DNA of 64,000 bases from Leifsonia sp. fls2-241-R2A-40a. Its GTDB lineage: Bacteria; Actinomycetota; Actinomycetes; Actinomycetales; Microbacteriaceae. The DNA lies in NCBI RefSeq assembly GCF_030209575.1, contig NZ_JARVRS010000001.1, positions 1,364,001 to 1,428,000 on the forward strand, read 5' to 3'. The first letter of the stretch is position 1. Each line of letters begins with the position of its first letter. Positions 34,120 to 61,279 of the stretch are shown piece by piece. A model generated the notes under the pieces. That model saw only the letters and a list, made by a program, of their open reading frames with translations. It was not told the DNA's origin and made no database searches. The position numbers and the translations under genes are program-made.

Positions 34120-34146
34120 CCATCGGCACGCTTGCGCCCGATGTTA
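34120..34146 (-). promoter_or_regulatory. FliA (sigma-28) promoter for flgN-flgK-flgL-fliW
   Basis: On the minus strand: TAAC (34146-34143), exactly 15 nt, then GCCGATGG (34127-34120). It matches the five other FliA-type promoters here except for one base in the -10. It lies 51 nt ahead of the flgN GTG. Confidence 0.75.
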
Positions 34147-34206
34147 GGCGCCGAGGTCCCCCGAAGTGCGGACCGACCTACCGCCTCACCACCGCTTGTC
34201 AGTATT

Positions 34207-34242
34207 CCCCGTACTGGGGGTACGTGCTGCCCCGTAATGGGG
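34207..34242. repeat. Tandem CCCCGTAxTGGGG boxes, candidate operator
   Basis: CCCCGTACTGGGG (34207-34219) and CCCCGTAATGGGG (34230-34242) are near-palindromes repeated with a 23-bp period, about two helical turns, so a dimeric regulator could bind both on one face. They lie between the divergent flgN and fliA genes. No regulator is assigned. Confidence 0.5.
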
Positions 34243-34386
34243 ACAGCCGCCATGCAATCTGAACAGGTTCGAATTGTTACCGTGAACAGCGGAAGACCCC
34301 TAGCACCTCGCTCGGCACCCGAAGTAAGTCCGAGCGTGTACCGCACCGCCCGAGTACCAGCGACGACCTCCCCGAAAGAGGCCGCC

Positions 34387-34410
34387 GTGAACTACCCGTC
34401 CGATGAATAA
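34387..34410 (+). CDS. Putative seven-codon minicistron upstream of fliA
   Basis: GTG at 34387 with AAAGAGG five bases upstream encodes MNYPSDE and stops at TAA (34408-34410). The stop overlaps the AAGGGG ribosome-binding site of fliA. The arrangement suits translational coupling or upstream-ORF control. It is very short, so it could be chance. Confidence 0.35.
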   Translation: MNYPSDE

Positions 34411-34423
34411 GGGGTCGCTCAGC

Positions 34424-35236
34424 GTGAACCGGAACGAACGCAACACGCTCGTCGTGGAGAACCTGCCGCTGGTCGGCTACCTGGTCTCCGACCTGTGCTC
34501 GCGCGCCACCCACCTGTCGCGCGACGACCTGGCCTCCGCCGGCGCCGTCGCCCTGGTGACCGCCGCCGACGCCTACGACGCCACCACCGGGGTGCCGTTC
34601 GGCGCCTACGCCCGCACCCGCATCCTCGGCGCGCTCGCGGACGAGCTGCGCGCGTCCGACTGGGCGACGCGTTCCGCACGCAAGCGAATCAAGGAGACGC
34701 TGGCGGTGCAGGAGAGCCTGACGGCCGCGCTCGGCCGCAAGCCCAGCGTCGACGAGATCGCCAACGCGCTCGGCGTCGACCGCGAGACCGCGATCGCCGG
34801 CCTCGCCGACGCCTCCCGGACCGTCACCGCCCTCGACGAGACGATCGAGCCGCTGCTGGTCTCCGAGACCGTCGGCCCCGAGGACTCCCTTCTGGCGAAC
34901 GAGCAGACCGCCTACGTCCGTGCCGCCGTCGCCGCCCTCCCCGACCGGATGCGCGCCATCGTGGAGGCCGTCTACTTCGATGACCGCACCGTCACCGAGA
35001 TCGCCGAGGAACTCGGCATCACGCACTCCGCCGTGTCCCAGCAGCGCTCCGAGGCGATCCGCCTCATGCGCGAGGGCATGGCCACCCACTACGCCGACGA
35101 GGGAGACCCCGTCGTCATCGAGGCGAAGACCTCGCAGGCCCGGCGCAGCGCGTATCTCGCGCGTCTCGCGCAGCATGCCGTCGCGGGAGTCTCCCGCCTC
35201 TCCCCCACGTCACCGAGCTCGGCGCGGGCGTCCTGA
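34424..35236 (+). CDS. fliA: Flagellar sigma factor FliA (sigma-28 family)
   Basis: Directs RNA polymerase to late flagellar promoters. 270 residues from GTG 34424. Region 2 spans DDLASAGAVALVTAADAYD to FGAYARTRILGALADELR, region 3 includes SVDEIANALGVDRETA, and region 4 has TVTEIAEELGITHSAVSQQRS as the -35-binding helix-turn-helix. The GTG at 34424 has AGGGG nine bases upstream; an in-frame ATG at 34403 has none. Six matching promoters lie in this window. No anti-sigma flgM is visible. Confidence 0.9.
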   Translation: MNRNERNTLVVENLPLVGYLVSDLCSRATHLSRDDLASAGAVALVTAADAYDATTGVPFGAYARTRILGALADELRASDWATRSARKRIKETLAVQESLTAALGRKPSVDEIANALGVDRETAIAGLADASRTVTALDETIEPLLVSETVGPEDSLLANEQTAYVRAAVAALPDRMRAIVEAVYFDDRTVTEIAEELGITHSAVSQQRSEAIRLMREGMATHYADEGDPVVIEAKTSQARRSAYLARLAQHAVAGVSRLSPTSPSSARAS

Positions 35237-35247
35237 CGGACGACCGC

Positions 35248-35274
35248 TAACGGGACGGCAACGACAGCCGATAG
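35248..35274 (+). promoter_or_regulatory. FliA (sigma-28) promoter for flagellin
   Basis: TAAC (35248-35251), 15 nt, GCCGATAG (35267-35274). Predicted start near 35281 gives a leader of about 53 nt with GGAGGAAAC before the flagellin ATG. Confidence 0.85.
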
Positions 35275-35333
35275 AGGCTGATGCGGACCACGGAAGGGCC
35301 GCGCACCACCACCCACATCATGGAGGAAACATC

Positions 35334-36170
35334 ATGGGTATGCAGATCAACACCAACATCGCGGCGAACAACGCCTACCGCAACCTGAACAACACGCAGG
35401 GCGACCTCTCGAAGTCGCTCGAGAAGCTGTCCAGCGGCCTCCGCATCAACCGTGCGGCGGACGACGCGGCCGGCCTCGCCATCTCGGAGGGCCTGAAGTC
35501 GCAGGTCGGCGGTCTGACCGTCGCCGCCCGCAACGCTCAGGACGGCATCAGTGTCGTGCAGACCGCTGAAGGTTCGCTCACCGAGGTCCACTCCATCCTG
35601 CAGCGCATGCGCGACCTCGCGGTGCAGGGCGGCAACGACTCGAACAACGCGACCTCGCGCGCGGCGATCAAGACGGAGGCCGACGAGCTGGGCAAGGAGC
35701 TCAACCGCATCACCAACGGAACCAACTTCAACGGGATCGACCTTCTCAAGGGCGGATCGCTGAACTTCCAGGTGGGCGCGGGTTCGACGGCGAACGACAC
35801 CATCGCGGTCAGCCTGGCCGACGTCGCCACCTCGGTCGGCACCCTGTCCGGCGCGGCCGGCGCCACCGGCTTCGACGTCACCAGCAACACGACGGCGAAC
35901 ACCACGATCACCGCGATCGACACCGCGATCACCGCGATCTCGACCGCTCGGTCGGAGCTCGGCGCCTCGCAGAACCGCTTCGAGTCGGCTGTCCGCAGCC
36001 TCAACGTCTCGAAGGAGAACCTGTCGGCCGCGTCCAGCCGCATCACCGACACCGACATGGCGGAGGAGATGGTGAAGTACACCCGCTCCAACATCCTGTC
36101 GCAGGCCGGCACGGCGATGCTCGCTCAGGCGAACCAGTCCAACCAGGGCGTGCTCCAGCTGCTCCGCTAA
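35334..36170 (+). CDS. fliC: Flagellin
   Basis: 278-residue filament protein. N-terminal D0/D1 (MGMQINTNIAANNAYRNLNN, SSGLRINRAADDAAGLAISE) and C-terminal D1/D0 (SRITDTDMAEEMVKYTRSNI, ending QSNQGVLQLLR) are intact, while the surface-exposed centre is only about 90 residues, so the filament subunit is near minimal. The Toll-like-receptor-5-type helix (LQRMRDLAVQGGND) is present. ATG at 35334 chosen by homology and its ribosome-binding site. A strong hairpin follows, limiting readthrough to fliD. Confidence 0.97.
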   Translation: MGMQINTNIAANNAYRNLNNTQGDLSKSLEKLSSGLRINRAADDAAGLAISEGLKSQVGGLTVAARNAQDGISVVQTAEGSLTEVHSILQRMRDLAVQGGNDSNNATSRAAIKTEADELGKELNRITNGTNFNGIDLLKGGSLNFQVGAGSTANDTIAVSLADVATSVGTLSGAAGATGFDVTSNTTANTTITAIDTAITAISTARSELGASQNRFESAVRSLNVSKENLSAASSRITDTDMAEEMVKYTRSNILSQAGTAMLAQANQSNQGVLQLLR

Positions 36171-38366: not shown

Positions 38367-38721
38367 CCCCATAGCACTTGTCCACCTGTGGATAACTCTG
38401 TTGAGAATCCGTGGATGACGGGGTCGATCGTGTGGAGGACACGCGCGGGATGTGTGGATTCTCAGATTCTCAGACTTCGTAAACAGCCTCTGACCGGCAT
38501 GTTTGCTGGCCCTTGGCCGCGGTCGAATACACATTCGAAAACACACGCCTGTAATTCACAACGGGGTACAAGCTGTGGATGACGGTGTGGGAAATCGTGC
38601 AGCGAACATCCCTGGCATGCGTTCCTAACGGGTGGGGAAGAGCTGCCGATAGCTCCTCTCGAGCACGGATCGCTCATCGACTGGCCACGGACGGGCCGCC
38701 CCACGACCCTGGAGTGCAGCT
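38367..38721 (+). promoter_or_regulatory. Low-GC intergenic region upstream of flgB with DnaA-box-like words
   Basis: 355 nt without a supportable gene. It opens with two abutting head-to-head boxes: TTGTCCACC (38378-38386) and TGTGGATAA (38387-38395, a perfect DnaA box on the minus strand). CGTGGATGA, TGTGGATTC and TGTGGATGA follow before 38585. A tandem ATTCTCAG repeat lies near 38460. The 3' end contains the flgB FliA promoter. The AT content is visibly higher than in the flanking genes. Confidence 0.55.
38626..38652 (+). promoter_or_regulatory. FliA (sigma-28) promoter for the flgB-flgE operon
   Basis: TAAC (38626-38629), 15 nt, GCCGATAG (38645-38652); predicted leader about 63 nt to the flgB GTG. 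It would drive at least flgB to flgE (12 genes) as one transcript. Confidence 0.85.
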
Positions 38722-39063
38722 GTGCTCGAATCCGTGACCAGCGCCGCCCTGACGAGCGCCCTCGACGGCCTCGCCGCGCGCCAACGCGCCATCGCGAACA
38801 ACATCGCCAACGTCAACACGCCGGGCTACACGGCGGAGCGCGTCTCGTTCGAGGACGCGCTCGCCGCCTCGGTAGCGGACCACGACGGGCACGCGAGCGC
38901 GACCACCGCCCGCTCGCTCGAGCCGACGCGCCTCGACGGCAACAACGTGAACCTCGACACCGAGACCATCTCGAACGTCGACACCGTGCTGCGATTCCAG
39001 TTCGCCTCCCAGGCGGCCGGCAACCAGTTCTCCACCATCCGCGCAGCGCTCAAGACCAACTGA
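38722..39063 (+). CDS. flgB: Flagellar basal-body rod protein FlgB
   Basis: 113 residues. The rod motif LAARQRAIANNIANVNTPGYTAERVSFED is intact and the C-terminal half is helical (VLRFQFASQAAGNQFSTIRAAL). Proximal rod subunit. GTG start at 38722 with GGAG upstream. First gene of the large operon. Confidence 0.95.
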   Translation: MLESVTSAALTSALDGLAARQRAIANNIANVNTPGYTAERVSFEDALAASVADHDGHASATTARSLEPTRLDGNNVNLDTETISNVDTVLRFQFASQAAGNQFSTIRAALKTN

Positions 39064-49195: not shown

Positions 49196-49270
49196 TCAGC
49201 AGCAGTCCGGCGGGCAGGACCCGTCGGGCAACGGCTGGCACTCGAGAGTGTCACAACAATCCATGGCCAT
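49196..49270 (-). CDS. Cysteine-rich 24-residue micropeptide in the ars locus
   Basis: Reading leftward from ATG 49270, the ORF encodes MAMDCCDTLECQPLPDGSCP followed by PDCC and TGA: six cysteines in 24 residues, arranged as CC, C, C, CC. GAAGGAAGGAG lies directly upstream of the start, an excellent ribosome-binding site. It is the first ORF after the ArsR operators and precedes arsC by 72 nt. Cysteine pairs suit soft-metal or arsenite binding, so a metallochaperone, scavenger or leader peptide is possible. No named family is known to me. Confidence 0.65.
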   Translation of the reverse strand: MAMDCCDTLECQPLPDGSCPPDCC

Positions 49271-49280
49271 TCTCCTTCCT

Positions 49281-49335
49281 TCATCGACGTTTGTCGATGA
49301 ACCTAGGATGAACACATACATTGACGAGTGTCAAT
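49281..49335. promoter_or_regulatory. Two palindromic ArsR operators between the divergent ars units
   Basis: TCATCGAC-gttt-GTCGATGA (49281-49300) and ATTGAC-gagt-GTCAAT (49320-49335) share the core TYGAC-N4-GTCRA and lie 37 bp apart centre to centre. The first covers the micropeptide leader, the second the arsR leader. Both are ArsR-like operators; the regulator encoded next door carries arsenite-binding cysteines. Confidence 0.7.
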
Positions 49336-49355
49336 ATATGGAGCATGATCGGATC

Positions 49356-49706
49356 ATGGCGATGACCGACCTCCTCCCGCTGCGCGACCTGCAGGCATGC
49401 TGCGCGCCGATCACGAAAGAAGTGATCTCCGAGCCGGACGCCCTTTCGCTCGCGTCCGCGATGAAGGCGCTCGCCGATCCCGCCCGCCTGCGGCTCCTCT
49501 CGATGATCGCCGCACACGAGGACGGCGAGGCGTGCGTCTGCGACCTCACCGAGCCGCTCGGTCTCTCACAGCCGACGGTCTCGCATCACCTGAAGGTCCT
49601 CAGCGCCGCCGGGTTCCTGACCCGGACCAAGCGCGGCACCTGGGCGTACTACCGGATCGCGCCGGGGTCGCTCGACGCCGTATCCTCCTTCTTCGGCTCG
49701 GTCTGA
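49356..49706 (+). CDS. arsR: ArsR-family arsenite-responsive repressor
   Basis: 116 residues, winged helix. SLASAMKALADPARLRLLSM and SQPTVSHHLKVLSAAGFLT give the fold. Cys15-Cys16 near the N-terminus (LQACCAPI) and the helix-3 motif EACVCDLTEPL (Cys60, Cys62) match the Corynebacterium ArsR arrangement, where an N-terminal Cys pair and a helix-3 Cys bind As(III). ATG at 49356 is preferred: GGAG is about 12 nt upstream and homology begins near here; ATG 49338 would place the operator in the coding region's edge and has no ribosome-binding site. Confidence 0.9.
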   Translation: MAMTDLLPLRDLQACCAPITKEVISEPDALSLASAMKALADPARLRLLSMIAAHEDGEACVCDLTEPLGLSQPTVSHHLKVLSAAGFLTRTKRGTWAYYRIAPGSLDAVSSFFGSV

Positions 49707-49776
49707 CGCGGATCTTCCGGATGGATCGGGTCGAGCCCTGACCGCGCACCCGGCGGCGACCTCGTAGGCTCGTCCC

Positions 49777-50526
49777 GTGCCGATCCTCTCCGAGCTGGCG
49801 CCGACCCTGCTCGGCGTGGCGGTGCTCGCCCTGCTGGCGGTCGCGGTGCTGTCCGCATACCGGGTTCCGCACCGGTGGGCGCCGGCGCTCGCCATCCTGC
49901 GCGGGGCAGCGCAGCTCGCGATCATCAGCGTCATCCTCGCCGGCGTCATCACCGATCCGGTGTGGGTAGCCCTCGCGCTGCTCGTGATGTTCTCGGTCGC
50001 CGCGGGCACCGCAACGCACCGGATCGGGTGGTCGCGCGACCACGCGGTCATGATGGCGACCGCGATGGCGACCGGAGTGATCGTGTCGTTCTCGGTGGTG
50101 TTCCTCACCGGCGCGATCGAGTTCAGCGCACGCTATGCGCTCGCGATCGGGGGCATCGTGATCGGGAACTCGATGAGCATCGCCACGCTCGCCGGGCGCC
50201 GCTTCACCGAGGCGGTGGGCGACCACTGGGATGAGGTGGAGGGGTGGATGGCGCTGGGCGCGACACCGAGGCAGTCGACCCTGGAACAGGCGCGGGCGGC
50301 CGTGTATTCGGCGCTCATCCCGTCGGTCGACCAGACCAAGACGACCGGCCTCGTGACCCTGCCGGGCGCCTTCGTCGGTGCGATCTTCGGGGGCGTGTCG
50401 CCGCTGGAGGCCGGCCGATTCCAGGTCGTCGTGCTCGCGGCGATCATGGCGGCAGGGGCGATTACGGCGGTCATCGTGTCCGCGTGGCTCGCGCCGGTGC
50501 GGGTGCGGCCCGCGGCCCTGCGCTGA
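49777..50526 (+). CDS. FetB-type (UPF0014) ABC transporter permease, orphan
   Basis: 249 residues, seven transmembrane helices. RWAPALAILRGAAQLAIISV, GIVIGNSMSIATLAGRRF and VDQTKTTGLVTLPGAFVGAI are the FetB/YbbM signature of a putative iron or metal exporter permease. The ATPase partner FetA usually adjoins it but is not here. ATG/GTG start at 49777; about 70 nt after arsR, same strand, so it may share arsR transcription. Confidence 0.85.
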   Translation: MPILSELAPTLLGVAVLALLAVAVLSAYRVPHRWAPALAILRGAAQLAIISVILAGVITDPVWVALALLVMFSVAAGTATHRIGWSRDHAVMMATAMATGVIVSFSVVFLTGAIEFSARYALAIGGIVIGNSMSIATLAGRRFTEAVGDHWDEVEGWMALGATPRQSTLEQARAAVYSALIPSVDQTKTTGLVTLPGAFVGAIFGGVSPLEAGRFQVVVLAAIMAAGAITAVIVSAWLAPVRVRPAALR

Positions 50527-50568
50527 GAACAGCGACCTGTCGCGTCGCGCACAAATGAGGGCATTGCC

Positions 50569-50582
50569 TTCAACGTTGTAAA
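50569..50582. promoter_or_regulatory. LacI operator upstream of lacI-family gene
   Basis: CAACGTTGTA (50571-50580) shares the CAACGTTG palindrome with the two operators at 51677-51702, so the regulator probably represses its own gene. It lies 36 nt before the regulator start. Confidence 0.65.
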
Positions 50583-50615
50583 GTCGAGCCAGGCGCGCAC
50601 GAGAGGGGAGCATCC

Positions 50616-51629
50616 ATGGCTGCGACGATGCACGATGTCAGCCGGCTCGCCGGCGTGTCCATCAAGACGGTGTCGAACGTCATCAACGACTACCCGTACG
50701 TGCGGGAGGAGACCCGCCGCAAGGTCCTCGACGCCATCGAGACCCTCGGCTACACGCCCAACCTCTCGGCGCGGAGCCTGCGTTCCGGGCGCACCAACGT
50801 CATCTCGCTGATGATCCCGGACCTCCGCAACGCGTACTTCGCCGAGCTCGCCGACTCGGTGATGCGGGCCGCGGCGGAGCGGGGGCTCACCGTGCTGATC
50901 GAGCAGTTCGGCAGCGAACGGCAGCGCGAGATCGACACGGTGCGGCAACCGCGGGCGCGGATGGTCGACGGCGTGCTCTACAGCGTGCTGACCCTCGATC
51001 AGGACGACGTCGACCTGATCGCCGAGGTGACCACGCCCGTCGTCCTCTTGGGCGACCGCAACTTCGGGGCGCCGCGCGACCACGTCACGATGCGGAACAC
51101 CGAGGGCGCCAAGGCGGCGACCGAGTACTTGCTGCGCTCCGGCCGGCGCCGGGTCGCCGCGTTCGGCGCCCACCCGGGCGAGGTCATCGGCTCGGCTGCG
51201 CTGCGCCTCGAGGGCTACCGGCAGGCGCTCGCCGAGGCCGGTCTCCCGTTCGACGAGTCCCTCGTCGTGCCGGTCGGGTCCTGGCATCGTCGCAACGGCG
51301 CCGAGGGAATGCGCGACTTCCTCGCCACCGGAACGGACTTCGACGGGCTGGTCGGGTTCAACGACGCGATCGCGCTCGGCGCCCTGCGCGTGCTGCAGGA
51401 GTCGGGGAGGCGCGTGCCGGAGGACGTGGCAGTCATGGGCTTCGACGACATCGACGAGACGCAGTACTCGATGCCGACCCTGTCGACCATCGACCCCGGG
51501 CGGGAGGAGATCGCGCGCATCGCCGTCGACCTGCTGGTCCGGCGGATCGAGGCCGGATCGGAGGCGTTCGTCCCTGAGGAGATCGCCGTCCCGTTCCGGC
51601 TGGTCGAGCGCGAGTCCACCGGGGGGTGA
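50616..51629 (+). CDS. LacI-family transcriptional regulator of the arabinoside locus
   Basis: 337 residues. N-terminal helix-turn-helix (TMHDVSRLAGVSIKTVSNVI) with the hinge helix PNLSARSLRSGRT, followed by a periplasmic-binding-protein-like effector domain (VAVMGFDDIDETQY near the C-terminus). Target operators CAACGTTG flank it. The ligand is likely L-arabinose or an arabino-oligosaccharide, inferred from the GH51 enzyme. ATG at 50616 with GAGGGGAG upstream. Confidence 0.9.
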   Translation: MAATMHDVSRLAGVSIKTVSNVINDYPYVREETRRKVLDAIETLGYTPNLSARSLRSGRTNVISLMIPDLRNAYFAELADSVMRAAAERGLTVLIEQFGSERQREIDTVRQPRARMVDGVLYSVLTLDQDDVDLIAEVTTPVVLLGDRNFGAPRDHVTMRNTEGAKAATEYLLRSGRRRVAAFGAHPGEVIGSAALRLEGYRQALAEAGLPFDESLVVPVGSWHRRNGAEGMRDFLATGTDFDGLVGFNDAIALGALRVLQESGRRVPEDVAVMGFDDIDETQYSMPTLSTIDPGREEIARIAVDLLVRRIEAGSEAFVPEEIAVPFRLVERESTGG

Positions 51630-51642
51630 GGCGAAAAACCAT

Positions 51643-51702
51643 TTGACACGGTCACATCCGACGCGCATCATGGTCTCTACAACGTTGTAGTACAACGTTG
51701 TA
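51643..51702 (+). promoter_or_regulatory. Promoter and double LacI operator of the sugar ABC operon
   Basis: TTGACA (51643-51648), 17-nt spacer, CATCAT (51666-51671). Directly downstream lie two perfect palindromes, CTACAACGTTGTAG (51677-51690) and TACAACGTTGTA (51691-51702), abutting each other and covering the transcription start. Repressor bound there would block initiation. Confidence 0.8.
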
Positions 51703-51737
51703 GACGAAGGTGTCACACACACCGCGAAGGGAATCCA

Positions 51738-53066
51738 ATGAAGAAGCTCCTTGCAGCGGGCGGCGTGATCGCGGTCGCGGTCGCAGCGCTCACCGGGTGT
51801 TCGTCAGGCAGCGGCGCAGCAGCCAGCTGCCAGAACACGATCGTGAACTCGGACGCCAAACAGGTCACCATGTGGGCCTGGTACCCCAACTTCGAGCCGG
51901 TCGTCGACCTGTTCAACAAGAACCACAAGGACGTCCAGATCTGCTGGACCAATGCCGGGGCGGGGACCGACGAGTACACGAAGTTCTCGACCGCGACGCA
52001 GGCCGGTTCCGGCGCACCGGACGTGGTGATGCTCGAGAGCCAGGTCGTCCCCAGCTACGTCGCCGACGGCTCCATCGTGGACCTCAGCGCCCTGGGTGCC
52101 GACTCGGTGAAGTCGAACTACTCCGAGGGCGCCTGGAGCGATGTCAGCCAGGGCGGGTCGGCCTACGCCATCCCCGTCGACGGCGGTCCCGTCGGCCTGC
52201 TCTACCGCAAGGACCTCTTCGACAAGTACGGCATCGCCGTCCCGACCACCTGGGACGAGTACGCGGCCGCCGCGGCCAAGATCAAGGAGGCGAGCGGCGG
52301 CAAGACCCTGATGACGACCTTCCCGGGCAACGGCAATGCCTACCAGACGGCCCTGTTCGCCCAGGCGGGGTCCGCGCCGTTCACGCTGAGTGGCAAGCAG
52401 GACATCTCCATCGACCTGAACGACGCCGCCAGCCTGAAGGTCTACACGTACTGGAACGACCTGGTGGAGAAGAAGCAGGTGGCCACGGAGAACACCTCGA
52501 CCACCGACTACAACACCCACCTCGTCAACGGCACGTACGCCACGGCCATCGCCGCCGCCTGGCTCCCGGGCTATCTGCAGGGATTCACCGGTGCCGACAA
52601 GACCGCGAAGTGGGCCGTGGCGCCGGTCCCGCAGTGGGACCCGGCCAACCCCGTTCAGATCAACATCGGCGGGTCCGCGTTCGCCGTGAGCAAGCAGGCT
52701 CAGAACCCCAAGGCGGCGGCGAAGGTCGCGACGGAGATCTTCGGCACAGAAGAGGCGTGGAAGCTCGGCATCGAGAAGGCGGCGCTGTTCCCGCTCTGGA
52801 AGCCCATCCTCGAATCCGACTACTTCACGACGAAGGCCTACCCCTTCTTCGGCGGCCAGAAGATCAACCAGGATGTGTTCCTCACCGCGGCGAAGGACTA
52901 CAAGGGCTTCCAGTTCACCCCGTTCCAGAACCTCGTCTACGACAAGCTGACCGACGCGATCAACTCGACGAACAAGGGCAAGGCGACCCCCGCGGAGGCG
53001 CTCAAGACCTATCAGAGCGCGGTCGAGAGCTACGCCAAGCAGCAGGGTTACACCGTCACCAAGTGA
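51738..53066 (+). CDS. Sugar ABC transporter substrate-binding lipoprotein
   Basis: 442 residues, family 1 extracellular solute-binding protein. Signal peptide with lipobox LTGC at about Cys21, then KQVTMWAWYPNFEPVVDLFN and GIAVPTTWDEYAAAAAKI. Ligand inferred as arabinan-derived oligosaccharide from abfA downstream. ATG at 51738 with GAAGGGAA upstream. A strong hairpin separates it from the permease genes. Confidence 0.93.
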   Translation: MKKLLAAGGVIAVAVAALTGCSSGSGAAASCQNTIVNSDAKQVTMWAWYPNFEPVVDLFNKNHKDVQICWTNAGAGTDEYTKFSTATQAGSGAPDVVMLESQVVPSYVADGSIVDLSALGADSVKSNYSEGAWSDVSQGGSAYAIPVDGGPVGLLYRKDLFDKYGIAVPTTWDEYAAAAAKIKEASGGKTLMTTFPGNGNAYQTALFAQAGSAPFTLSGKQDISIDLNDAASLKVYTYWNDLVEKKQVATENTSTTDYNTHLVNGTYATAIAAAWLPGYLQGFTGADKTAKWAVAPVPQWDPANPVQINIGGSAFAVSKQAQNPKAAAKVATEIFGTEEAWKLGIEKAALFPLWKPILESDYFTTKAYPFFGGQKINQDVFLTAAKDYKGFQFTPFQNLVYDKLTDAINSTNKGKATPAEALKTYQSAVESYAKQQGYTVTK

Positions 53067-53072
53067 CGGACC

Positions 53073-53112
53073 GAGGTGCCCGGGCCGCGCTGATGCCCTG
53101 CCCGGGCACCTC
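53073..53112 (+). terminator. Attenuator-type hairpin between receptor and permease genes
   Basis: Perfect 13-bp stem GAGGTGCCCGGGC / GCCCGGGCACCTC with a 14-nt loop, 7 nt after the stop. Such hairpins let the receptor be made in excess over the permeases. Confidence 0.75.
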
Positions 53113-53152
53113 TCCAGCATCACCCGTTCCCCCATCCTGAAGGGCTTCACCG

Positions 53153-54094
53153 ATGACCCAAACCGCCGTCGCACCGCCGCGACAGCGCCCGCCGCGGACA
53201 CCCCGCCGCGACATGGTCGGCCTCCGCCGCGCGCGGTGGGGCTGGGCGTTCACCGCCCCGTTCGCCGTCTTCCTCGTCGCGTTCCTGCTGGTGCCGCTCG
53301 TCTACGCGTTCGTGCTCAGCCTCCAGAACACGACGCTCGCCGGAGGCACGTCGTGGGTGGGCCTCGCCAACTACGCCAAGGCGTTCACCGACCCGCTGTT
53401 CCTCGACGGCGTGTGGCGCGTGCTCCTGTTCGCCGTCATCATGATCCCGGCGCAGATGCTCGTGGCCCTGGTCGCCGCGCTCCTCATCGACGCTCTGACC
53501 ACACGGTTCGCGAAGATCTCGCGCCTGCTGATCTTCGTCCCCTACGCCGTGCCCGTCGTGATCGGCGCGCTGATGTGGGGCTTCCTCTACAGCCCGAGCT
53601 TCGGACCGGCGCAGGAGCTGTTCGGGCTGGTGGGGCTGCAGGCGCCCAACTTCTTCTCCGACGGGAACGTCTTCGGCTCGCTGGTCAACATCGTGACCTG
53701 GCAGTGGGCCGGCTACTACATGATCATCATCTACGCGGCACTGCAGGGGGTCGATCCGTCGATCTACGAAGCGGCCCGGGTGGATGGCGCCAACGCCTGG
53801 CAGATCGCGCTGCGGATCAAGGTCCCGATGGTGGCGTCGTCGCTGCTGCTTGTGCTCGTCTTCGCCCTGATCGGGACGCTGCAGTTCTTCAACGAGCCGC
53901 AGATGCTCCGGGGGATGGCGTCCGGCTCGATCACCTCCAACTACACGCCGAACATCTACGCCTACACGGTCGCGTTCTCGTACCACCAGTTCAACTACGC
54001 CTCCGCCATCGCGTTCGCACTCGGGCTCGTCATCTTCATCGGCTCGTACGCGTTCATGTTCGCCACGCGCAAGAGAAGTGGACTGATGAAATGA
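53153..54094 (+). CDS. Sugar ABC transporter permease, MalF-type
   Basis: 313 residues, six or more helices. The cytoplasmic EAA loop is EAARVDGANAWQIALRIKVP near residue 205. A long basic N-terminus (RQRPPRTPRRDMVGLRRARW) precedes the first helix. ATG at 53153 with GAAGGGC upstream. Stop overlaps the next permease (ATGA). Confidence 0.94.
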   Translation: MTQTAVAPPRQRPPRTPRRDMVGLRRARWGWAFTAPFAVFLVAFLLVPLVYAFVLSLQNTTLAGGTSWVGLANYAKAFTDPLFLDGVWRVLLFAVIMIPAQMLVALVAALLIDALTTRFAKISRLLIFVPYAVPVVIGALMWGFLYSPSFGPAQELFGLVGLQAPNFFSDGNVFGSLVNIVTWQWAGYYMIIIYAALQGVDPSIYEAARVDGANAWQIALRIKVPMVASSLLLVLVFALIGTLQFFNEPQMLRGMASGSITSNYTPNIYAYTVAFSYHQFNYASAIAFALGLVIFIGSYAFMFATRKRSGLMK

Positions 54095-55056
54095 CCACCG
54101 GACTCCTGAACCCGGCCGAACCGGCCACGGACACGCGCAGCATCCATGCGCGCAGCACCCGTACGGGGCGGCCCCTCCGTTCCCGCAACGACGCGCCGGC
54201 CGGCCGGCGCACCGGACGCCAGGTGATCCCGCACATCGTGCTCGCCGCGTTCATCGTCTACTTCGCCCTGCCGTTCTGGTGGCTGCTCGTCGCGAGCACC
54301 AAGAGCCAGCAGAGCCTGTTCGACGGCAAGACCAGTCCGCTCTGGTTCTCGGGATCGTTCGACCTGTTCTCGAACATCGGCTCGCTGTTCAGCTACTCGG
54401 GCGGCCTCTACGCGCACTGGCTCGGGAACTCGTTCCTCTACGCCATCGCCGGCGGCGCCGGGGCCACCGTGCTCTCGGTGCTCGCCGGGTACGGGTTCTC
54501 GATGTACGGCTTCCGCGGGCGGAGGCTGTTCTTCGCCATCGTGCTCGGTTCGGTGATGGTCCCCGCGACGGTGCTCGTCATCCCGATGTTCGTGCTGATG
54601 AGCGGGGCGCATTTGACCAACACGATCTGGGCCGTCATCCTGCCGTCGATGCTGAATCCGTTCGCCGTCTACCTGATGAAGGTCTACACCGACGAGGCGA
54701 TCCCCTCCGAGATGGTGGATGCAGCCCGCGTCGACGGTGCGGGCGAGGTCCGCATCTTCGCCCGCGTCGCCCTCCCCCTCATGCGCCCGGCCGTCGTGAC
54801 CGTTCTGCTGCTCTCCATCGTCGGCACCTGGAACAACTTCTTCCTGCCGTTGGTGATGTTCTCGAACCCGCAGCTCTTCCCCGTCACCGTCGGACTCGGC
54901 GCCCTCCAGGCGCAGGCGCAGGTGAACACCGGCGGTCAGTCGCTGTGGAACCTCGTCATCACCGGCGCCCTGATCTCGATCATCCCGCTGATCGTCTCCT
55001 TCCTCACCCTGCAGCGCTACTGGCAGGGCGGACTGGCGATCGGCAGCGTCAAGTGA
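54091..55056 (+). CDS. Sugar ABC transporter permease, MalG-type
   Basis: 321 residues. After a Thr/Arg-rich N-terminal 45 residues come six helices; the EAA loop is DAARVDGAGEVRIFARVALP near residue 210. ATG at 54091 overlaps the previous stop. No ATPase gene is in this operon, so a shared MsmK/MsiK-like ATPase elsewhere must energise the importer. Confidence 0.94.
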   Translation: MTTGLLNPAEPATDTRSIHARSTRTGRPLRSRNDAPAGRRTGRQVIPHIVLAAFIVYFALPFWWLLVASTKSQQSLFDGKTSPLWFSGSFDLFSNIGSLFSYSGGLYAHWLGNSFLYAIAGGAGATVLSVLAGYGFSMYGFRGRRLFFAIVLGSVMVPATVLVIPMFVLMSGAHLTNTIWAVILPSMLNPFAVYLMKVYTDEAIPSEMVDAARVDGAGEVRIFARVALPLMRPAVVTVLLLSIVGTWNNFFLPLVMFSNPQLFPVTVGLGALQAQAQVNTGGQSLWNLVITGALISIIPLIVSFLTLQRYWQGGLAIGSVK

Positions 55057-55109
55057 GCACCCCGCACCACGGAACCCCCCACCGCACGAAACCAGGAACG
55101 CAGGAGACC

Positions 55110-56615
55110 ATGTCCGAGACCCGCATCGCCCTCGACCGCACCGCGCGCGTCGCCACCGTCAACCGCCGCATCTTCGGCTCGTTCGTCGAGCACCTCGGGC
55201 GCTGCGTCTACGACGGCATCTACGAGCCGGGGCACCCGACCGCGAACGAGGACGGGTTCCGGCTGGATGTCGTGGATCTGGTGCGCGAACTCGGATCGTC
55301 GACCATCCGCTACCCGGGCGGCAACTTCGTCTCCGGCTTCCGCTGGGAGGACTCGGTCGGTCCGCGCGACCAGCGGCCCGTCCGCCGCGACCTCGCCTGG
55401 CACTCGCTGGAGTCGAACCAGGTGGGACTGGACGAGTTCTCCCGCTGGCTGAAGCTCACCGGCTCCGAGCTGATGCTCGCCGTGAACCTCGGCACCCGTG
55501 GCATCCAGGCCGCCCTCGACCTGCTCGAGTACGCCAACCACCCGTCGGGCACGGCGCTCAGCGACCAGCGGATCGCGAACGGTACTCCCGAACCGCACGA
55601 CATCCGGATGTGGTGCCTGGGCAACGAGATGGACGGCCCCTGGCAGACCGGCTACATGACGGCGGACGACTACGGCAAGCTCGCCGCGCGCACCGCGGCC
55701 GCGATGAAGATGGCCGACAAGGATCTCGAGCTCGTGGTGTGCGGTTCGTCGGGCTCCGGGATGCCGACCTTCGGCGAGTGGGAGCGCATCGTCCTCGAGC
55801 ACTCCTACGACCACGTCGACTACATCTCCGCCCACGCGTACTACCAGGAGCGCGGCGGCGACCTGGCGTCCTTCCTCGCGTCGTCGGTGGACATGCAGTA
55901 CTTCATCGACACGGTCGTCGCCACGGCCGACCACGTCGGGTACCGGCAGAAGAACACGAAGAAGATCCAGATCTCGTTCGACGAGTGGAACATCTGGTAC
56001 CTCGACGAGCACAAGGAGTCGGAGGAGGTCAACGACGACTGGCGCTACGCCCCGCGCCAGCTGGAGGATGTCTACTCGGCCGCCGACGCGGTGGTGCTCG
56101 GCAACCTGCTGATCACGCTGCTGAAGAACCACGACCGGGTGACCAGCGCATCCCTCGCCCAGCTCGTCAACGTGATCGCACCGATCATGACCGAGCCGGG
56201 CGGCGCCGCCTGGCGCCAGACCACCTTCTTCCCGTTCTCGGTGACGAGCCGGCTGGCGCGCGGCGAGGTGCTCCGTCCCACCATCACGACCGGTACCTAC
56301 GAGTCGGCCGTGTACGGCGAGGCGGACCTGGTGGATGCGGTCGCCACCTTCGATGAGGCCGACGGCTCGGCCGCGCTGTTCGTCGTGAACCGCAGCCTGA
56401 CCGAGACGCAGACGGTCCGGGTGGATGTGCGCGACCTGGGCGTCTCCGACGTGCGTGAGGCGCTCTCCCTGTGGGACGAGGACGTGTACGCCAAGAACAC
56501 GATCGACGACCAGGAGCGCGTCGGCCTGCGCCCGACACCGGTCGCCACGCTCGCCGACGGCGTGCTCACGCTGGAGCTCCCGCCGGTCTCCTGGACGGCC
56601 GTGTCGCTGGCCTGA
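55110..56615 (+). CDS. abfA: Alpha-L-arabinofuranosidase, GH51
   Basis: 501 residues, intracellular (no signal peptide). Releases L-arabinose from imported arabino-oligosaccharides. Acid/base Glu173 in WCLGNEMDGPWQ and nucleophile Glu292 in ISFDEWNIWY fit the GH51 (beta/alpha)8 enzymes. N-terminus RIFGSFVEHLGRCVYDGIYE is typical. ATG at 55110 with CAGGAGA upstream. Last gene of the LacI-controlled operon. Confidence 0.96.
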   Translation: MSETRIALDRTARVATVNRRIFGSFVEHLGRCVYDGIYEPGHPTANEDGFRLDVVDLVRELGSSTIRYPGGNFVSGFRWEDSVGPRDQRPVRRDLAWHSLESNQVGLDEFSRWLKLTGSELMLAVNLGTRGIQAALDLLEYANHPSGTALSDQRIANGTPEPHDIRMWCLGNEMDGPWQTGYMTADDYGKLAARTAAAMKMADKDLELVVCGSSGSGMPTFGEWERIVLEHSYDHVDYISAHAYYQERGGDLASFLASSVDMQYFIDTVVATADHVGYRQKNTKKIQISFDEWNIWYLDEHKESEEVNDDWRYAPRQLEDVYSAADAVVLGNLLITLLKNHDRVTSASLAQLVNVIAPIMTEPGGAAWRQTTFFPFSVTSRLARGEVLRPTITTGTYESAVYGEADLVDAVATFDEADGSAALFVVNRSLTETQTVRVDVRDLGVSDVREALSLWDEDVYAKNTIDDQERVGLRPTPVATLADGVLTLELPPVSWTAVSLA

Positions 56616-57578: not shown

Positions 57579-58397
57579 TCAGGCCGCTTCCTCGACGGGA
57601 TCCTTCGCGCCGCGCGCCGGCTTGGCGCTCTTACCCGCGGCCTTCTCGGCGTCGCCGTCCGGGATCATCGCGCGCAGGCGCTCGCCGAGGAGCCGTGGCT
57701 GGCTGCCCGACTGGACGGCGAGCACGCCTTCCAGGAGCAGCGTCATGCGCTCGACGTCCAGCTCGGAGAGCCGGCGCAGGCGGGCGCCGAGAGGCAGCCA
57801 CAGGAAGTTCGCGGAGAGCAGGCCCCACAGGGTCGCGACGAAGGCGCTCGCGATCAGCGGGCCGAGCTCGCCCGGCGTCGCGAGGTTCTCGAGGACGTGC
57901 GTGAGCGAGACGACGGTACCGATGATGCCGATCGTGGGCGCGTAGCCGCCCATGGCGCTGAAGAACTTCGCGGCGACGCGGTCCTTCTTGGAACGCGTGG
58001 CGATCTCGTCCTCCAGCAGGACGCGCAGCTCGTCGCCGTCGGTGCCGTCGGCGATGTTCTGCAGGGCGCGCTTCAGGAAGGGGTCGTCGACGCCCTCCGC
58101 CTCCTGCTCCATGGCGAGGAGGCCGTTGGCGCGCGCCTTCTCGGCGAGCCCGACCACCTGGTCGATCACCTGCTGCGGGGGCTCGATCTTGCCCCGGAAC
58201 GCGCGGGGGAGCGCCTTCACCGCGGTGAGGAAGTCCTTCACCGTGCCGCTTGCGATGCCGACCGCGACGGTGGCCCCGAAGACCAGCACCATGGGCGCGG
58301 GCAGCAGCAGCGAGCTCAGGTGCGCGCCCTCCATCGTCACCATCGCGACGACGGAGCCGAACGCGAGGACGATGCCGATGATCGTTGCCGGGTCCAT
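57579..58397 (-). CDS. motA: Flagellar motor stator protein MotA
   Basis: About 272 residues, four transmembrane helices. MDPATIIGIVLAFGSVVAMV starts helix 1; helices 3-4 include GGYAPTIGIIGTVVSLTHVL with the conserved Pro. ATG at 58397 is chosen because GGAAG lies five bases upstream; the adjoining GTG at 58400 is too close to it. The flbD stop overlaps. Confidence 0.94.
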   Translation of the reverse strand: MDPATIIGIVLAFGSVVAMVTMEGAHLSSLLLPAPMVLVFGATVAVGIASGTVKDFLTAVKALPRAFRGKIEPPQQVIDQVVGLAEKARANGLLAMEQEAEGVDDPFLKRALQNIADGTDGDELRVLLEDEIATRSKKDRVAAKFFSAMGGYAPTIGIIGTVVSLTHVLENLATPGELGPLIASAFVATLWGLLSANFLWLPLGARLRRLSELDVERMTLLLEGVLAVQSGSQPRLLGERLRAMIPDGDAEKAAGKSAKPARGAKDPVEEAA

Positions 58398-58723
58398 CAC
58401 TTCTTCCTTGCTCGAATGGGGACGGCGCGGGCCTCGGGGTGAGCGTGCGCCGTCTCGTTGTCTTCCAGTCCTGGCAGCGGCACGAGCCCCAGTGTCGGCG
58501 CGGGCACAGGGCGCGGACCGGCGGCGGGGAGGTCGTGGGCGAGGGCGATCACACGCGCCCGGTACGCGGCGATCTTCTCGATCACTTCGGACATGGATTC
58601 GGTGACGATGAATTTCGCCCCGTCGACCATGACGAGAGTGGTGTCCGGACTGGCGTGGATGCGCTCGATGAGGTCGGGGTTGACCGCAAACTGGCTGTCG
58701 TTCAATCGGGTGACGACGATCAT
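58397..58723 (-). CDS. flbD: FlbD family flagellar protein
   Basis: 108 residues from ATG 58723. The FlbD family start is MIVVTRLNDSQFAVNPDLIE, seen here exactly at the ATG; TLVMVDGAKFIVTESMSEVI follows. Commonly next to motAB in Gram-positive flagellar clusters; role unclear. A GTG at 58762 is in frame and lies 7 nt past the FliA -10 box, so a 121-residue leaderless product is an alternative; AGGA nine bases before 58723 supports the shorter form. The C-terminal half is Pro/Ala-rich. Confidence 0.85.
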   Translation of the reverse strand: MIVVTRLNDSQFAVNPDLIERIHASPDTTLVMVDGAKFIVTESMSEVIEKIAAYRARVIALAHDLPAAGPRPVPAPTLGLVPLPGLEDNETAHAHPEARAVPIRARKK

Positions 58724-58769: not shown

Positions 58770-58796
58770 CTATCGGCGTCGGCCGGTCGGTCGTTA
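58770..58796 (-). promoter_or_regulatory. FliA (sigma-28) promoter for flbD-motA-motB
   Basis: Minus strand: TAAC (58796-58793), 15 nt, GCCGATAG (58777-58770). It points leftward and is back to back with the fliM promoter 28 nt away. Confidence 0.85.
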
Positions 58797-58824: not shown

Positions 58825-58851
58825 TAACGCCCTGCGCTCACCGGCCGATAG
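58825..58851 (+). promoter_or_regulatory. FliA (sigma-28) promoter for fliM
   Basis: TAAC (58825-58828), 15 nt, GCCGATAG (58844-58851). The fliM GTG is only 8 nt after the -10 end, so transcription should begin at or one or two bases before the start codon. Confidence 0.85.
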
Positions 58852-58859: not shown

Positions 58860-59744
58860 GTGACGACTCTGCAGGCCCCGGCACCGGATGCGCTCGAGGC
58901 GCCGGTCTACGACTTCCGGCGGCCCACGACGCTCGCCCGGGAGCACTCGCGCGTGCTCGAGCTCGCGTTCGAGACATTCGCGCGGCAGTGGGGGACGCAG
59001 CTGACCGCGAAGGTCCGCGTGCTCAGCCAGGTCGAGTGCGACAACGTGCAGATGCAGACGTACGACGAGTACGCGGCGTCCCTGCCCGCGACCACGGCCA
59101 TGGTGCTGTGCGAGCTGGAGGAGATCGCGCCGAAGGCCGTCATCCAGTTCCCGACCGTCGCCGCCCTGTCGTGGGTGAACGCGATGCTCGGCGGACAGGG
59201 CACGCCCGTCGACCACGAGCGCACGTTCACGCAGATCGAGCACGCGCTCGTCCGTCGGCTGATGGATGACGCGCTGGAGGACCTCAGCTACTCGCTCGGG
59301 TCGCTGCTGGTGAACCCGATCGCGGTGGACGCCATCCAGTACAACTCACAGTTCGCCCAAGCCGCGGCGACCTCCGAGCTGATGATCGTCGCCGGGTTCG
59401 AGCTGCACGTCGGCGACAACACGGCGCGGGCGACCCTCGCCCTTCCTGCCGTCGCCCTGCTCCCGCAGCTCGGCGAGACGAATCCCACCCACAGCACCGA
59501 CAACGCGCGGGAGCTGGTGGATGCCCAGCTGTCGCGCGTCCCCGTGGATGTGGCGCTCCGGCTGGCGCCCGCGACAGTGCGTCCCAGCGTGGTGCTGGGG
59601 CTCGCGGTCGGCGACCTGCTGCCGCTGCCGCACCCTCAGCACCGACCGTTCGATCTGACCGTCGGCGACCAGGCCATCGCCTCGGCCGCTCTCGGCTCGA
59701 GCGGCTCGCGTCTCGCCTGCGTGATCACCAACACCGAGGACTGA
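58860..59744 (+). CDS. fliM: Flagellar motor switch protein FliM
   Basis: 294 residues. YDFRRPTTLAREHSRVLELA and the C-terminal FliN-like domain (VDVALRLAPATVRPSVVLGL...LPLPHPQHRPFDLTV) are diagnostic. The N-terminal CheY-P-binding LSQDEIDALL peptide of enteric FliM is missing; only a short Pro/Ala-rich arm precedes the core. No ribosome-binding site precedes the GTG at 58860, fitting a leaderless mRNA. fliN follows 4 nt later. Confidence 0.93.
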   Translation: MTTLQAPAPDALEAPVYDFRRPTTLAREHSRVLELAFETFARQWGTQLTAKVRVLSQVECDNVQMQTYDEYAASLPATTAMVLCELEEIAPKAVIQFPTVAALSWVNAMLGGQGTPVDHERTFTQIEHALVRRLMDDALEDLSYSLGSLLVNPIAVDAIQYNSQFAQAAATSELMIVAGFELHVGDNTARATLALPAVALLPQLGETNPTHSTDNARELVDAQLSRVPVDVALRLAPATVRPSVVLGLAVGDLLPLPHPQHRPFDLTVGDQAIASAALGSSGSRLACVITNTED

Positions 59745-59748
59745 ACCC

Positions 59749-60462
59749 ATGAGCATGACCCTCTCGAACACCGCCGGGATCTCCCTCGGCCAGGCCCAGG
59801 CCGCGGCGGAGGCGCTCTCGCGCCTGCTGCCGACCGGCGCCCCGCTCACGCCGCTGCTCGCGCAGGGATCGGACGTCGACGGCGCCAACCGTGCCGTCGT
59901 CGCCACCTTCGTCGGTGCCGTCTCCGCCGACTTCGCCGTCGTGCTGCTGGAGGCGCCGCAACTGGTGGACGACGGGATGGACGGCTCGCCGGTGGTGGCG
60001 CTTCAGGATGTGCTGCAGCCGGCCCTCGAGGCGGCCAGCGACACGCTCGGCGCCGGCGTGCTCGACGACGCCCGCACCGACGACGCGGCGGAGCTCTTCG
60101 CCGACCCCTCGACGACGGTGTTCGCGCTGTCCGGCCCCGCAGGCGTCGCCGGCTGGTTCGCGATCCGGGGGCGGGCGTCGGTCGCCGAGCGTGCCGCAAC
60201 CGGCGTGCTGGGCGGCAAGCTCGCCCGGATCAGCAACGTGGAGATGGCCCTGACGGTGGAGATCGGCCGCACCCGGATGGCCGTGCGGGACGTGCTGGCC
60301 ATGGAGCCGGGCGCGGTCATCGAACTGGACCGCTCGGCCGGCTCGCCCGCGGATGTGCTGCTCAATGGCCGCCTCATCGCGCACGGCGAGATCGTGGTCG
60401 TCGACCAGGACTACGCGGTCCGCATCACCAAGATCCTCGACGCGGCCGAAGACCTGGACTGA
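59749..60462 (+). CDS. fliN: Flagellar motor switch protein FliN, long form (FliY-like)
   Basis: 237 residues against 80-140 for typical FliN. The C-terminal 80 residues are the SpoA/C-ring domain (VEIGRTRMAVRDVLAMEPGA, VIELDRSAGSPADVLLNGR). Residues 1-150 resemble the CheC/FliY-like N-terminal domain in size and helical layout, but I do not see the CheC phosphatase motif. ATG at 59749 with the alternative Met three codons on. Converges on the SUMF1 gene with a one-base gap. Confidence 0.9.
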   Translation: MSMTLSNTAGISLGQAQAAAEALSRLLPTGAPLTPLLAQGSDVDGANRAVVATFVGAVSADFAVVLLEAPQLVDDGMDGSPVVALQDVLQPALEAASDTLGAGVLDDARTDDAAELFADPSTTVFALSGPAGVAGWFAIRGRASVAERAATGVLGGKLARISNVEMALTVEIGRTRMAVRDVLAMEPGAVIELDRSAGSPADVLLNGRLIAHGEIVVVDQDYAVRITKILDAAEDLD

Positions 60463-60463
60463 G

Positions 60464-61204
60464 TCAGCGCCGCGGCGTCCATCCCGGAGGCAGCGGTCCG
60501 TCGAGGGAGGCGCGCTCCGCGTCCTCCGCAGCGGACCACCCCTGCGCGGCGCCGTCGGCGTCGAAGCCGCCGCGGGCGAACCGGAAGCCGACGTCCTCCA
60601 GCTGCGTGCGCGGCGGACCGCCCCGGCGCACGGAGGCCCGCACGTTCCACGCGTCGTCCGCGAACCCGCCGCCCCGGAAGACCCGGTAGTCGCCGTAGCG
60701 GCCGGGGTCGAGGAGGTCCCAGCACCACTCCCAGACGTTGCCGAGCGTGTCGAAGAGCCCGTTGAGGTTCGGGAGGCGCAGCCCGACGTCCTGAGGTTCG
60801 CGCACCCCGTCCGCGCTGGTCCAGGCGATCTCCGGCAGCGGGCCGTAGTGGGGAGCGGCCGACCCGGCGCGGCAGGCGTACTCCCACTCCGCCTCGGTCG
60901 GCAGGCGATAGCCGTCCGCATCCACGTGCCAGGTGACGTCCTCGCCGTCGAACGTGTACGCCGGGTCCAGCCCCTCCCACTCGGAGGCCGCGTTGCAGAT
61001 CCGCACGGCACGCAACCAGCTGATCCCGGTGGCCGGGCGGCGCGGATGCGGCGCCGGCTCGCCGATCAGCTCGGCCGCCTCCGCCTCCGTCACGGCGAAG
61101 GTGCCCAGTTCGAACTCCTCCAGCTCCACCGTCCAGCGCCGCTCGCGCCGGGCGTCGTGCAGCTGGACGCTCCCGGCCGGGATGCGCGCCAGCTCGATGT
61201 CCAC
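60464..61204 (-). CDS. SUMF1/formylglycine-generating-enzyme-like domain protein
   Basis: 246 residues. The fold motifs are clear: ISWLRAVRICNAASEWEGLD, YRLPTEAEWEYACRAGSAAP, GLFDTLGNVWEWCWDL and VFRGGGFADDAWNVRASVRR, with the C-terminal VGFRFAR. This domain includes sulfatase-activating FGE, EgtB and many uncharacterised members. It lies on the opposite strand between fliN and fliO, transcribed from just upstream of the fliO promoter. The target, and any link to flagella, are unknown. Confidence 0.9.
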   Translation of the reverse strand: MDIELARIPAGSVQLHDARRERRWTVELEEFELGTFAVTEAEAAELIGEPAPHPRRPATGISWLRAVRICNAASEWEGLDPAYTFDGEDVTWHVDADGYRLPTEAEWEYACRAGSAAPHYGPLPEIAWTSADGVREPQDVGLRLPNLNGLFDTLGNVWEWCWDLLDPGRYGDYRVFRGGGFADDAWNVRASVRRGGPPRTQLEDVGFRFARGGFDADGAAQGWSAAEDAERASLDGPLPPGWTPRR

Positions 61205-61252
61205 GGCCCCAGCATCCCACCTCCCGTGCCTCTGTTTCGTCCGTCCAGCACC

Positions 61253-61279
61253 TAACGGGACCCCGGCCCCGGTCGATAG
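61253..61279 (+). promoter_or_regulatory. FliA (sigma-28) promoter for fliO-fliP-fliQ-fliR-flhB
   Basis: TAAC (61253-61256), 15 nt, GTCGATAG (61272-61279), one base different from the others. The fliO GTG is 8 nt beyond the -10, again a leaderless arrangement. Confidence 0.8.

Follow-up and report, generated by a model that had tools for sequence, protein, structure and literature searches.

How are flagellar genes controlled when a FliA-type sigma factor is encoded among them and its regulation cannot be ascribed to FlgM? This question is raised by the flagellar gene cluster of Leifsonia sp. fls2-241-R2A-40a, which was analysed within a window of 64,000 nucleotides (nt; contig NZ_JARVRS010000001.1, positions 1,364,001-1,428,000). 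A Kineococcus radiotolerans paper from 2008, in the parts consulted, recorded no flgM in the then-sequenced flagellated Actinobacteria, including Leifsonia xyli, and reasoned that FliA in flagellated actinobacteria must be regulated otherwise than by FlgM (PMC2587704), and in 2023 FlgM was described, as far as the consulted part of that report goes, as lacking in later actinobacterial classes (PMC10746217). For the Leifsonia cluster, an earlier note on the same DNA had identified six near-identical sites as FliA promoters and had offered them as a consensus for actinobacterial flagellar sigma factors at large. The answer held to be probable here is that the six sites are promoters for the cluster's own FliA and together form a flat regulon, the output of which is probably shaped at the RNA level.

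FliA-type sites in the flagellar cluster

The six sites, each read as a FliA-type promoter (P1 to P4 from the pattern search, conservation in relatives and Pfam matches of the genes behind them), are:

34120..34146, minus strand: P1, heading flgN-flgK-flgL
35248..35274, plus strand: P2, heading fliC (flagellin), fliD and fliS
38626..38652, plus strand: P3, heading flgB and the long basal-body and hook unit to flgE
58770..58796, minus strand: P4, heading flbD-motA-motB
58825..58851, plus strand: P5, heading fliM-fliN
61253..61279, plus strand: P6, heading fliO

The pattern search returned all six at the positions and on the strands originally given for them, with a spacing of 15 nt in every copy. 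The pattern TAAC-N15-GYCGATRG has 6 matches in the window and 0 in 100 dinucleotide shuffles, and when the whole genome (3,753,110 bases, 4 contigs) was searched, as the earlier note had proposed, exactly these six were obtained, 6/6 inside the flagellar cluster, with a single match for the same pattern reversed. That every site lies ahead of a flagellar unit was borne out by Pfam, the first genes being FlgN, flagellin, Flg_bb_rod (flgB), FlbD, FliM and FliO, and fliA does reside in the same cluster (open reading frame (ORF) 34403-35236, matching sigma regions 2, 3 and 4 in Pfam). The six units together with fliA hold the flagellar genes recognised in the window, the last unit extending from fliO to flhB; flhA and csrA follow immediately beyond the window end (Pfam).

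In their form the sites resemble promoters of the sigma-28 type. The -10 element reads G(C/T)CGAT in 6/6 sites and GCCGAT, the sigma-28 core, in 5/6, and the distance from TAAx to GCCG is 15 nt in 6/6, which is the sigma-28 spacing. The -35 element is a variant: TAAC stands in 6/6, as in relatives, in place of the classical TAAA, and it is better read as CTAAC, because a C precedes TAAC in 6/6 sites. A relaxed search (TAA[AC], spacing 13-18, GYCGATA) recovered 5/6 sites and one stray at spacing 13, P1 escaping because it ends in ATGG. With one mismatch allowed, the whole genome yields 22 further sites, all outside the cluster; as backward controls give 13, these are mostly background, and a wider regulon built on them was set aside. 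Clustering of hits at motility and chemotaxis genes had been named as support for the sites, a check which can show motility only, because no chemoreceptor (PF00015) was found in the genome at E up to 0.001. A genome with flagellar genes and no recognised methyl-accepting chemotaxis protein (same model and threshold) is a side observation in its own right.

Lineage range of the promoter motif

The nearest fliA loci of named organisms are those of Leifsonia, 95% identical. The group comprises 37 fliA loci, 36 of which are labelled with Microbacteriaceae genera or the family itself and one with Micrococcaceae. At least one TAAC-N15-GYCGA site is present in 36/37 of these loci, L057 having none, and in 0/30 loci of other taxa from the same fliA search. 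L057, a metagenome-assembled genome in which no TAAC-type site was found, holds two separate FlgN matches in tandem at 8714-9752.

Within the family the motif follows the flagellum: among 150 genomes, CTAAC-N15-GYCGATAG is present in 44/46 with FliM vs 2/104 without it (Fisher 5.5e-33, a p-value which is only a guide because the genomes are related), and summed over all of them there are 119 matches vs 10 for the backward pattern. Its position is equally constant. In the loci of 80 relatives plus the window, 152/155 sites with at least 12/13 motif positions lie ahead of a recognised flagellar gene, a count which is biased because the loci were picked around flagellar genes and overlap in genomes; of the remaining 3, two precede fliO, in the window and in L127, and the third is in L163. 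Of the exact matches far from FliM in relatives, 8 were fetched and judged by ORF layout, others on separate contigs of fragmented assemblies being left out. One heads three ORFs sized like flgN-flgK-flgL (L176), another a 400-amino-acid ORF (L177, from a genome whose FliM is divergent), and the other six lie in coding sequence or have no clear near gene on the same strand.

A survey of 248 genomes of the order set the limits of this range. The exact motif is present in 4/5 FliM-bearers of the own family and in 6/7 of a second family (f6), and it is found in 1/66 FliM-bearers of all other families (G187, on another contig) and in two genomes without FliM. The second family may be Micrococcaceae, as suggested by L061, an uncultured Micrococcaceae whose fliA locus carries the motif. 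In 16 loci of other families (L229-L244), the top tetramer upstream of GCCGA[AT][AT] is CTCA at 16 nt (4 vs 0.07 expected), and CTC[AC]-N16-GYCGA[AT] gives 30 sites vs 6 for the mirror pattern. A consensus for Actinobacteria at large is not supported by this survey, as the motif is nearly confined to two families and other families show CTCA-N16-GCCGA[AT]. What endures of the earlier claim is the promoter reading itself, on account of the sigma-28-type appearance of the sites and the recurrence of the same motif before the same genes in relatives. The fliA loci of Cellulomonas, Demequina and Sanguibacter (L072, L075, L079) lack the motif; when 20 window proteins were compared with them by tblastn, no flagellar gene besides fliA turned up within 10 kilobases, so that they are uninformative on promoters and were set aside.

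FliA and its upstream region

34403..35236, plus strand: fliA, a sigma-28-type factor of 277 amino acids (Pfam; solved relatives include FliA of several bacteria)
34207..34242, no strand assigned: two copies of CCCCGTANTGGGG, 23 base pairs (bp) apart, upstream of fliA

The window FliA matches the Pfam models of sigma regions 2, 3 (partial) and 4, and its best solved relatives include the FliA entries 1rp3, 6pmi and 9wsf. In region 4.2 the recognition helix reads THSA(V/I)SQ-x-R in all 36 readable of the 37 FliA proteins of the lineage; in FliA proteins from outside the lineage it reads SR(V/I)(C/S)Q-x-H (30/30). The changed -35 element and the changed recognition helix may be linked in this lineage. 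At 35081-35233, about 50 residues extend past region 4, and an AYL-containing stretch recurs there in the relatives printed.

FlgM (PF04316) gave 0 matches in the genome at E up to 10, with a model that passed the cut-off in 3/14 control genomes. Without a FlgM match, and with sites standing before early and motor genes as well as late ones, the regulon would be transcriptionally flat.

Upstream of fliA, the copies of CCCCGTANTGGGG at 34207 and 34230 are its sole exact matches in the genome, one-mismatch sites numbering 14 vs 9 backward controls. They form tandem palindromes, CCCCGTACTGGGG (34207-34219) and CCCCGTAATGGGG (34230-34242), 23 bp apart. Among loci named Leifsonia (n=12), both copies (CCCCNTANTGGGG) are present in 7, one copy in 1 and none in 4. 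The tandem could be the operator of a fliA regulator.

Start codons of fliM and fliO

58860..59744, plus strand: fliM, predicted leaderless (Pfam; start-codon comparison)
61288..61779, plus strand: fliO, predicted leaderless (Pfam, on the longer ORF 61279-61779)
60464..61204, minus strand: FGE-sulfatase-like gene between fliN and fliO, on the opposite strand to both (Pfam)

Behind P5 and P6 the coding sequences begin unusually close to the promoter. The GTG of fliM (58860) and the in-frame GTG of fliO (61288) each stand at exactly +9, counted from the last base of the -10 element; for fliO, the GTG at 61288 is the more likely start, because the ORF as listed would open within the promoter, on its final base (61279). 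Among 45 relatives, a motif with at least 11/13 positions lies ahead of fliM in 38, and in these 38 an in-frame start codon follows at +9 in 35, at +8 in 2 and at +10 in 1; in 4/38 the codon in that position is ATG rather than GTG. In some relatives, extra in-frame GTGs overlap the -10 element or lie farther downstream of the fliM promoter; the +9 codon is likely the fliM start. An in-frame FliM start at +8 or +9 was also found in 4/4 loci of the second family and, behind the CTCA promoter, in 7/16 outgroup loci (f9, f3, f10, f18, f19).

At the mapped sigma-28 promoter of E. coli aer, according to the consulted part of the report, the transcript starts 6 bp after the -10 octamer (PMC2859248), and by this measure the fliM and fliO leaders would be 0-3 nt, too short for a Shine-Dalgarno sequence. 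Transcript starts at +6 to +9 would fit a start codon fixed at +9. As the +9 distance is conserved in relatives, the fliM and fliO messenger RNAs look leaderless. The same does not apply to flbD, for which GTG 58762 was considered as a leaderless start and rejected, since the match to the Pfam FlbD model starts only at an ATG 13 residues farther on and relatives have leaders.

P6 is restricted to part of the genus. In 44 relatives outside the genus, fliO lies close behind fliN and no FliA-type site (at least 11 positions) precedes it. Where flbD was detected (38 relatives), it shares the strand of fliM and lies about 2 kilobases upstream of it in 37, the exception being the same-genus L127; in the window and in L127, flbD-motAB is reversed and fliN and fliO are kept apart by the FGE-sulfatase-like gene or by a gap about as large. 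Of 28 genus genomes, 25 have fliO, and P6 is present in 20/25, each time with 13/13 positions and an in-frame GTG at +9 (20/20). Eighteen of the 20 P6 genomes (18/25 fliO-bearing ones) have the FGE-like gene at the junction, the gaps in the other two measuring 179 and 204 bp (for 4 of the 20, the locus did not include fliN). The 5 fliO-bearing genomes without P6 have a fliN-fliO gap of 10-11 bp and no FGE-like gene. Present in 20/25 and in none of the 5 with abutting genes, P6 goes with the broken junction: the fliO promoter tracks the split of fliN from fliO.

Leader hairpins and csrA

35334..36170, plus strand: fliC, flagellin (Pfam on a longer ORF in the same frame; start placed at 35334)
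35283..35302, plus strand: CsrA-like fliC leader hairpin, loop ACGGAA, with one stem mismatch in this genome
38661..38675, plus strand: flgB leader hairpin 1, GAGC-ACGGATC-GCTC, also present in the lowest-energy fold
38683..38697, plus strand: flgB leader hairpin 2, GGCC-ACGGACG-GGCC, conserved in relatives, absent from the lowest-energy fold here
38722..39063, plus strand: flgB (Pfam)
58397..58723, minus strand: flbD, start set at the ATG where the Pfam match begins

Messages from the other promoters would have leaders. In the fliC leaders of the relatives, a hairpin with the loop A(C/T)GGA is present in all 28 distinct cores, near the expected transcript start. Over these cores its stem pairs in 87.2% of cells (74.4% in shuffles) and reaches a covariation score of 0.321 (0.108 in shuffles), values as high being reached in 0/500 shuffles in either case; sliding the stem partner by 1-3 columns lowers pairing to 17-44%. 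A scan of leaders for stems closing any GGA loop, with expectations from dinucleotide shuffles, gave at least 5 pairs in 28/28 flgB leaders (2.4 expected) and at least 4 pairs in 25/34 fliC leaders (8.6 expected) and 11/14 flbD leaders (4.05 expected); a narrower scan requiring A-x-GGA undercounts flbD (2/14 with 4 pairs). The flgB leaders of relatives hold two GGA loops, with A(C/T)GGA in nearly all, and several flbD loops read AGGA(A/C/T) or ACGGAC on unrelated stems. GGA hairpins also occur in flbD leaders of the outgroup, in several families. For fliM leaders the scan gave 1/36 (5.7 expected), which is not above background. Rfam, applied to 28000-64000, returned one weak match far below the gathering score and none on the leaders.

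The gene for a candidate binding protein lies at the cluster end: csrA (L096:3527-3763, PF02599, E 2.7e-22), whose product aligns with solved CsrA proteins. It is present in 46/150 family genomes, the same 46 that have FliM, and in 0/104 without FliM. The CsrA consensus is given, in the part of the source consulted, as RUACARGGAUGU with GGA in a hairpin loop (PMC7652899). A GGA placed in the loop was found across relatives for fliC, flgB and flbD, imperfectly so in this genome's fliC and flbD, and it is plausible that these CsrA-site-like hairpins are bound by CsrA.

Proposed mechanism and alternatives

Building on what the sequence shows, namely where the sites lie and how well they are conserved, the fixed distance to the start codon, the hairpins (including the fliC covariation) and the tie of csrA to flagella, we infer FliA dependence, transcript starts and CsrA binding with its effect in the following course of events. 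RNA polymerase carrying the cluster's own FliA would read all six sites, so that once FliA is made every unit would be transcribed: the early flgB, fliM and fliO units, the motor unit flbD-motAB, and the late flgN-flgKL and fliC units. Transcription of fliM and fliO would begin on the start codon or no more than about 3 nt away from it. The fliC, flgB and, in many relatives, flbD messages would carry GGA-loop hairpins to which the CsrA encoded at the cluster end could bind, restraining translation. Extended to the whole order, the proposal becomes tentative and is rather doubtful as a package: a FlgM-gated hierarchy might have been replaced by a flat FliA regulon in which CsrA hairpins hold the fliC, flgB and flbD messages, the leaderless fliM and Leifsonia's newly gained fliO messages escape CsrA and are translated at once, and a split operon acquires another leaderless promoter.

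Several observations weigh against this explanation. Kinship among the genomes makes the counts overstate significance, and the exact match is missing from two FliM-bearing family genomes: G063 reads CTTAC, and the FliM of G016 is divergent. No motif was found ahead of fliM in 7/45 relatives (L144, L155, L156, L160, L164, L170, L171), nor a fliM promoter of the CTCA kind in 9/16 outgroup loci (f14, f15, f8, f16, f2). FlgM was looked for with a weak model of a short and variable protein, and no FliW was found among the few ORFs Pfam-scanned near csrA and fliC, no genome-wide FliW search having been made. As for the hairpins, fliC pairs changed on both sides (4) were equalled in 31/500 shuffles, and in this genome the fliC stem consists of 2 pairs at the loop, a mismatch and 4 pairs, the lowest-energy fold of the leader closing the loop otherwise, around GGAA. 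Of the two flgB hairpins, only hairpin 1 appears in the lowest-energy fold of that leader; the strong flbD hairpin of this genome has a loop that lacks GGA, a motif found only in a weak 4-pair one; and flgN leaders show GGA-loop stems in 4/31 (5.75 expected), which is not above background.

Of the competing explanations, the one to be taken most seriously, though somewhat unlikely, accepts that FliA reads the promoters and gives the hairpins a different role, as operators in the DNA, as determinants of RNA stability or as targets of some other protein. CsrA binding is at this point a prediction, some of this genome's leaders have imperfect hairpins or adopt another fold, the sequence of flgB hairpin 1 shows little variation, which would suit a DNA operator, and the flgN leaders stay at background. 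Against it stand the loop A(C/T)GGA in 28/28 fliC cores and nearly all flgB leaders, in agreement with the CsrA consensus as far as the consulted source gives it (PMC7652899), the covarying fliC stems, the presence of the flbD loops on unrelated stems, and the restriction of csrA to exactly the FliM-bearing genomes. That fliM and fliO have ordinary short leaders, their fixed distance reflecting another constraint and their translation not being leaderless, is unlikely: if transcription began 6 bp downstream of the -10 octamer, as at E. coli aer, about 3 nt of leader would remain (PMC2859248, consulted in part) and some relatives offer additional in-frame start codons downstream at fliM, but there is no space for a Shine-Dalgarno sequence at either gene in any case, the fliM distance is kept while GTG becomes ATG and in families with another -35 element, and the same +9 distance recurs in the separately gained fliO promoter. 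Very improbable, finally, is that the sites are read by another sigma factor (a second sigma-28 or WhiG-like one) or are transcription-factor operators instead of promoter elements. The cluster's fliA is the only sigma gene that was examined, which leaves room for such a factor and counts against the favoured explanation as well; two elements at a fixed 15-nt spacing with the sigma-28 core GCCGAT, a motif that follows flagella across 150 genomes, and a lineage of the motif that coincides with the changed recognition helix of the cluster FliA all argue for FliA promoters.

Remaining features of the locus

33541..34068, minus strand: flgN, first gene of the P1 unit (Pfam)
32112-33536, minus strand: flgK, second gene of the P1 unit (Pfam)
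31225-32109, minus strand: flgL, third gene of the P1 unit, an ORF matching the flagellin N and C models (Pfam)

Gene names follow Pfam matches, except for fliE, fliF, fliG, fliI and fliP, which were presumed from position and sequence. Between flgE and motB, an island at 48834-56615 holds an ArsR-type regulator, UPF0014, a LacI-type regulator, sugar-transport genes and an arabinofuranosidase.

Comparison with known systems and significance

In Actinoplanes missouriensis, one promoter type, CTCA(N15-17)GCCGAA, reportedly stands before all flagellar genes tested (Jang et al. 2016, J Bacteriol 198:2219). That system shares with the present one a single promoter type for the whole cluster and the same -10 core, and its consensus agrees with CTCA 16 nt before GCCGA[AT][AT] in the outgroup families; the window lineage differs from it in having CTAAC and a -10 element mostly ending in AG.

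The E. coli sigma-28 consensus is given, in the consulted part of the source, as TAAAGTTT-n11-GCCGATAA (PMC2859248). The likeness lies in the -10 core GCCGAT, the 15 nt from TAAx to GCCG and the presence of a sigma-28-type factor in the cluster (PMC2859248), the differences in a -35 element that ends in C instead of A, a -10 element that ends in AG (GG in P1) instead of AA, and sites which head early basal-body and export genes besides late ones, with no FlgM found.

For the hag leader of Bacillus subtilis, two CsrA sites are described in the consulted part of the source, one of them over the Shine-Dalgarno sequence (PMC7652899). GGA sites in the flagellin leader and a csrA tied to flagella are features in common; unlike there, flgB too has hairpins ahead of it (two), as does flbD in many relatives, fliM and fliO are apparently leaderless, and no FliW turned up in the few ORFs scanned, a genome-wide search not having been made. 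A suggestion of 2015, as far as the source was consulted, holds that Actinobacteria may control CsrA through FliW (PMC4682653). The 2008 Kineococcus paper already associated csrA with flagellar genes and described a BS2-like CsrA site in the flagellin leader; its consulted parts contain no promoter consensus, covarying hairpins, flgB or flbD sites, or leaderless fliM (PMC2587704). Literature titles and abstracts, which covered few subscription journals, held no report of these promoters, leader hairpins or a leaderless fliM, that BS2-like site being the nearest (PMC2587704). Added by the present work are the lineage-specific promoter, the conserved fliM start-codon distance, the fliO promoter and the covarying hairpins in flagellar leaders; points that go beyond the earlier note are the apparent lack of a leader at fliM and fliO, the limited range of the fliO promoter, the leader hairpins and the failure to find FlgM.

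Annotation gains a lineage-specific consensus and a revised fliO start codon, and P6 is a natural case of a promoter accompanying a split operon. For FliA regulation without FlgM, a testable answer is suggested: one sigma factor would serve all the genes, and CsrA-like hairpins would act on the leadered and not on the leaderless transcripts.

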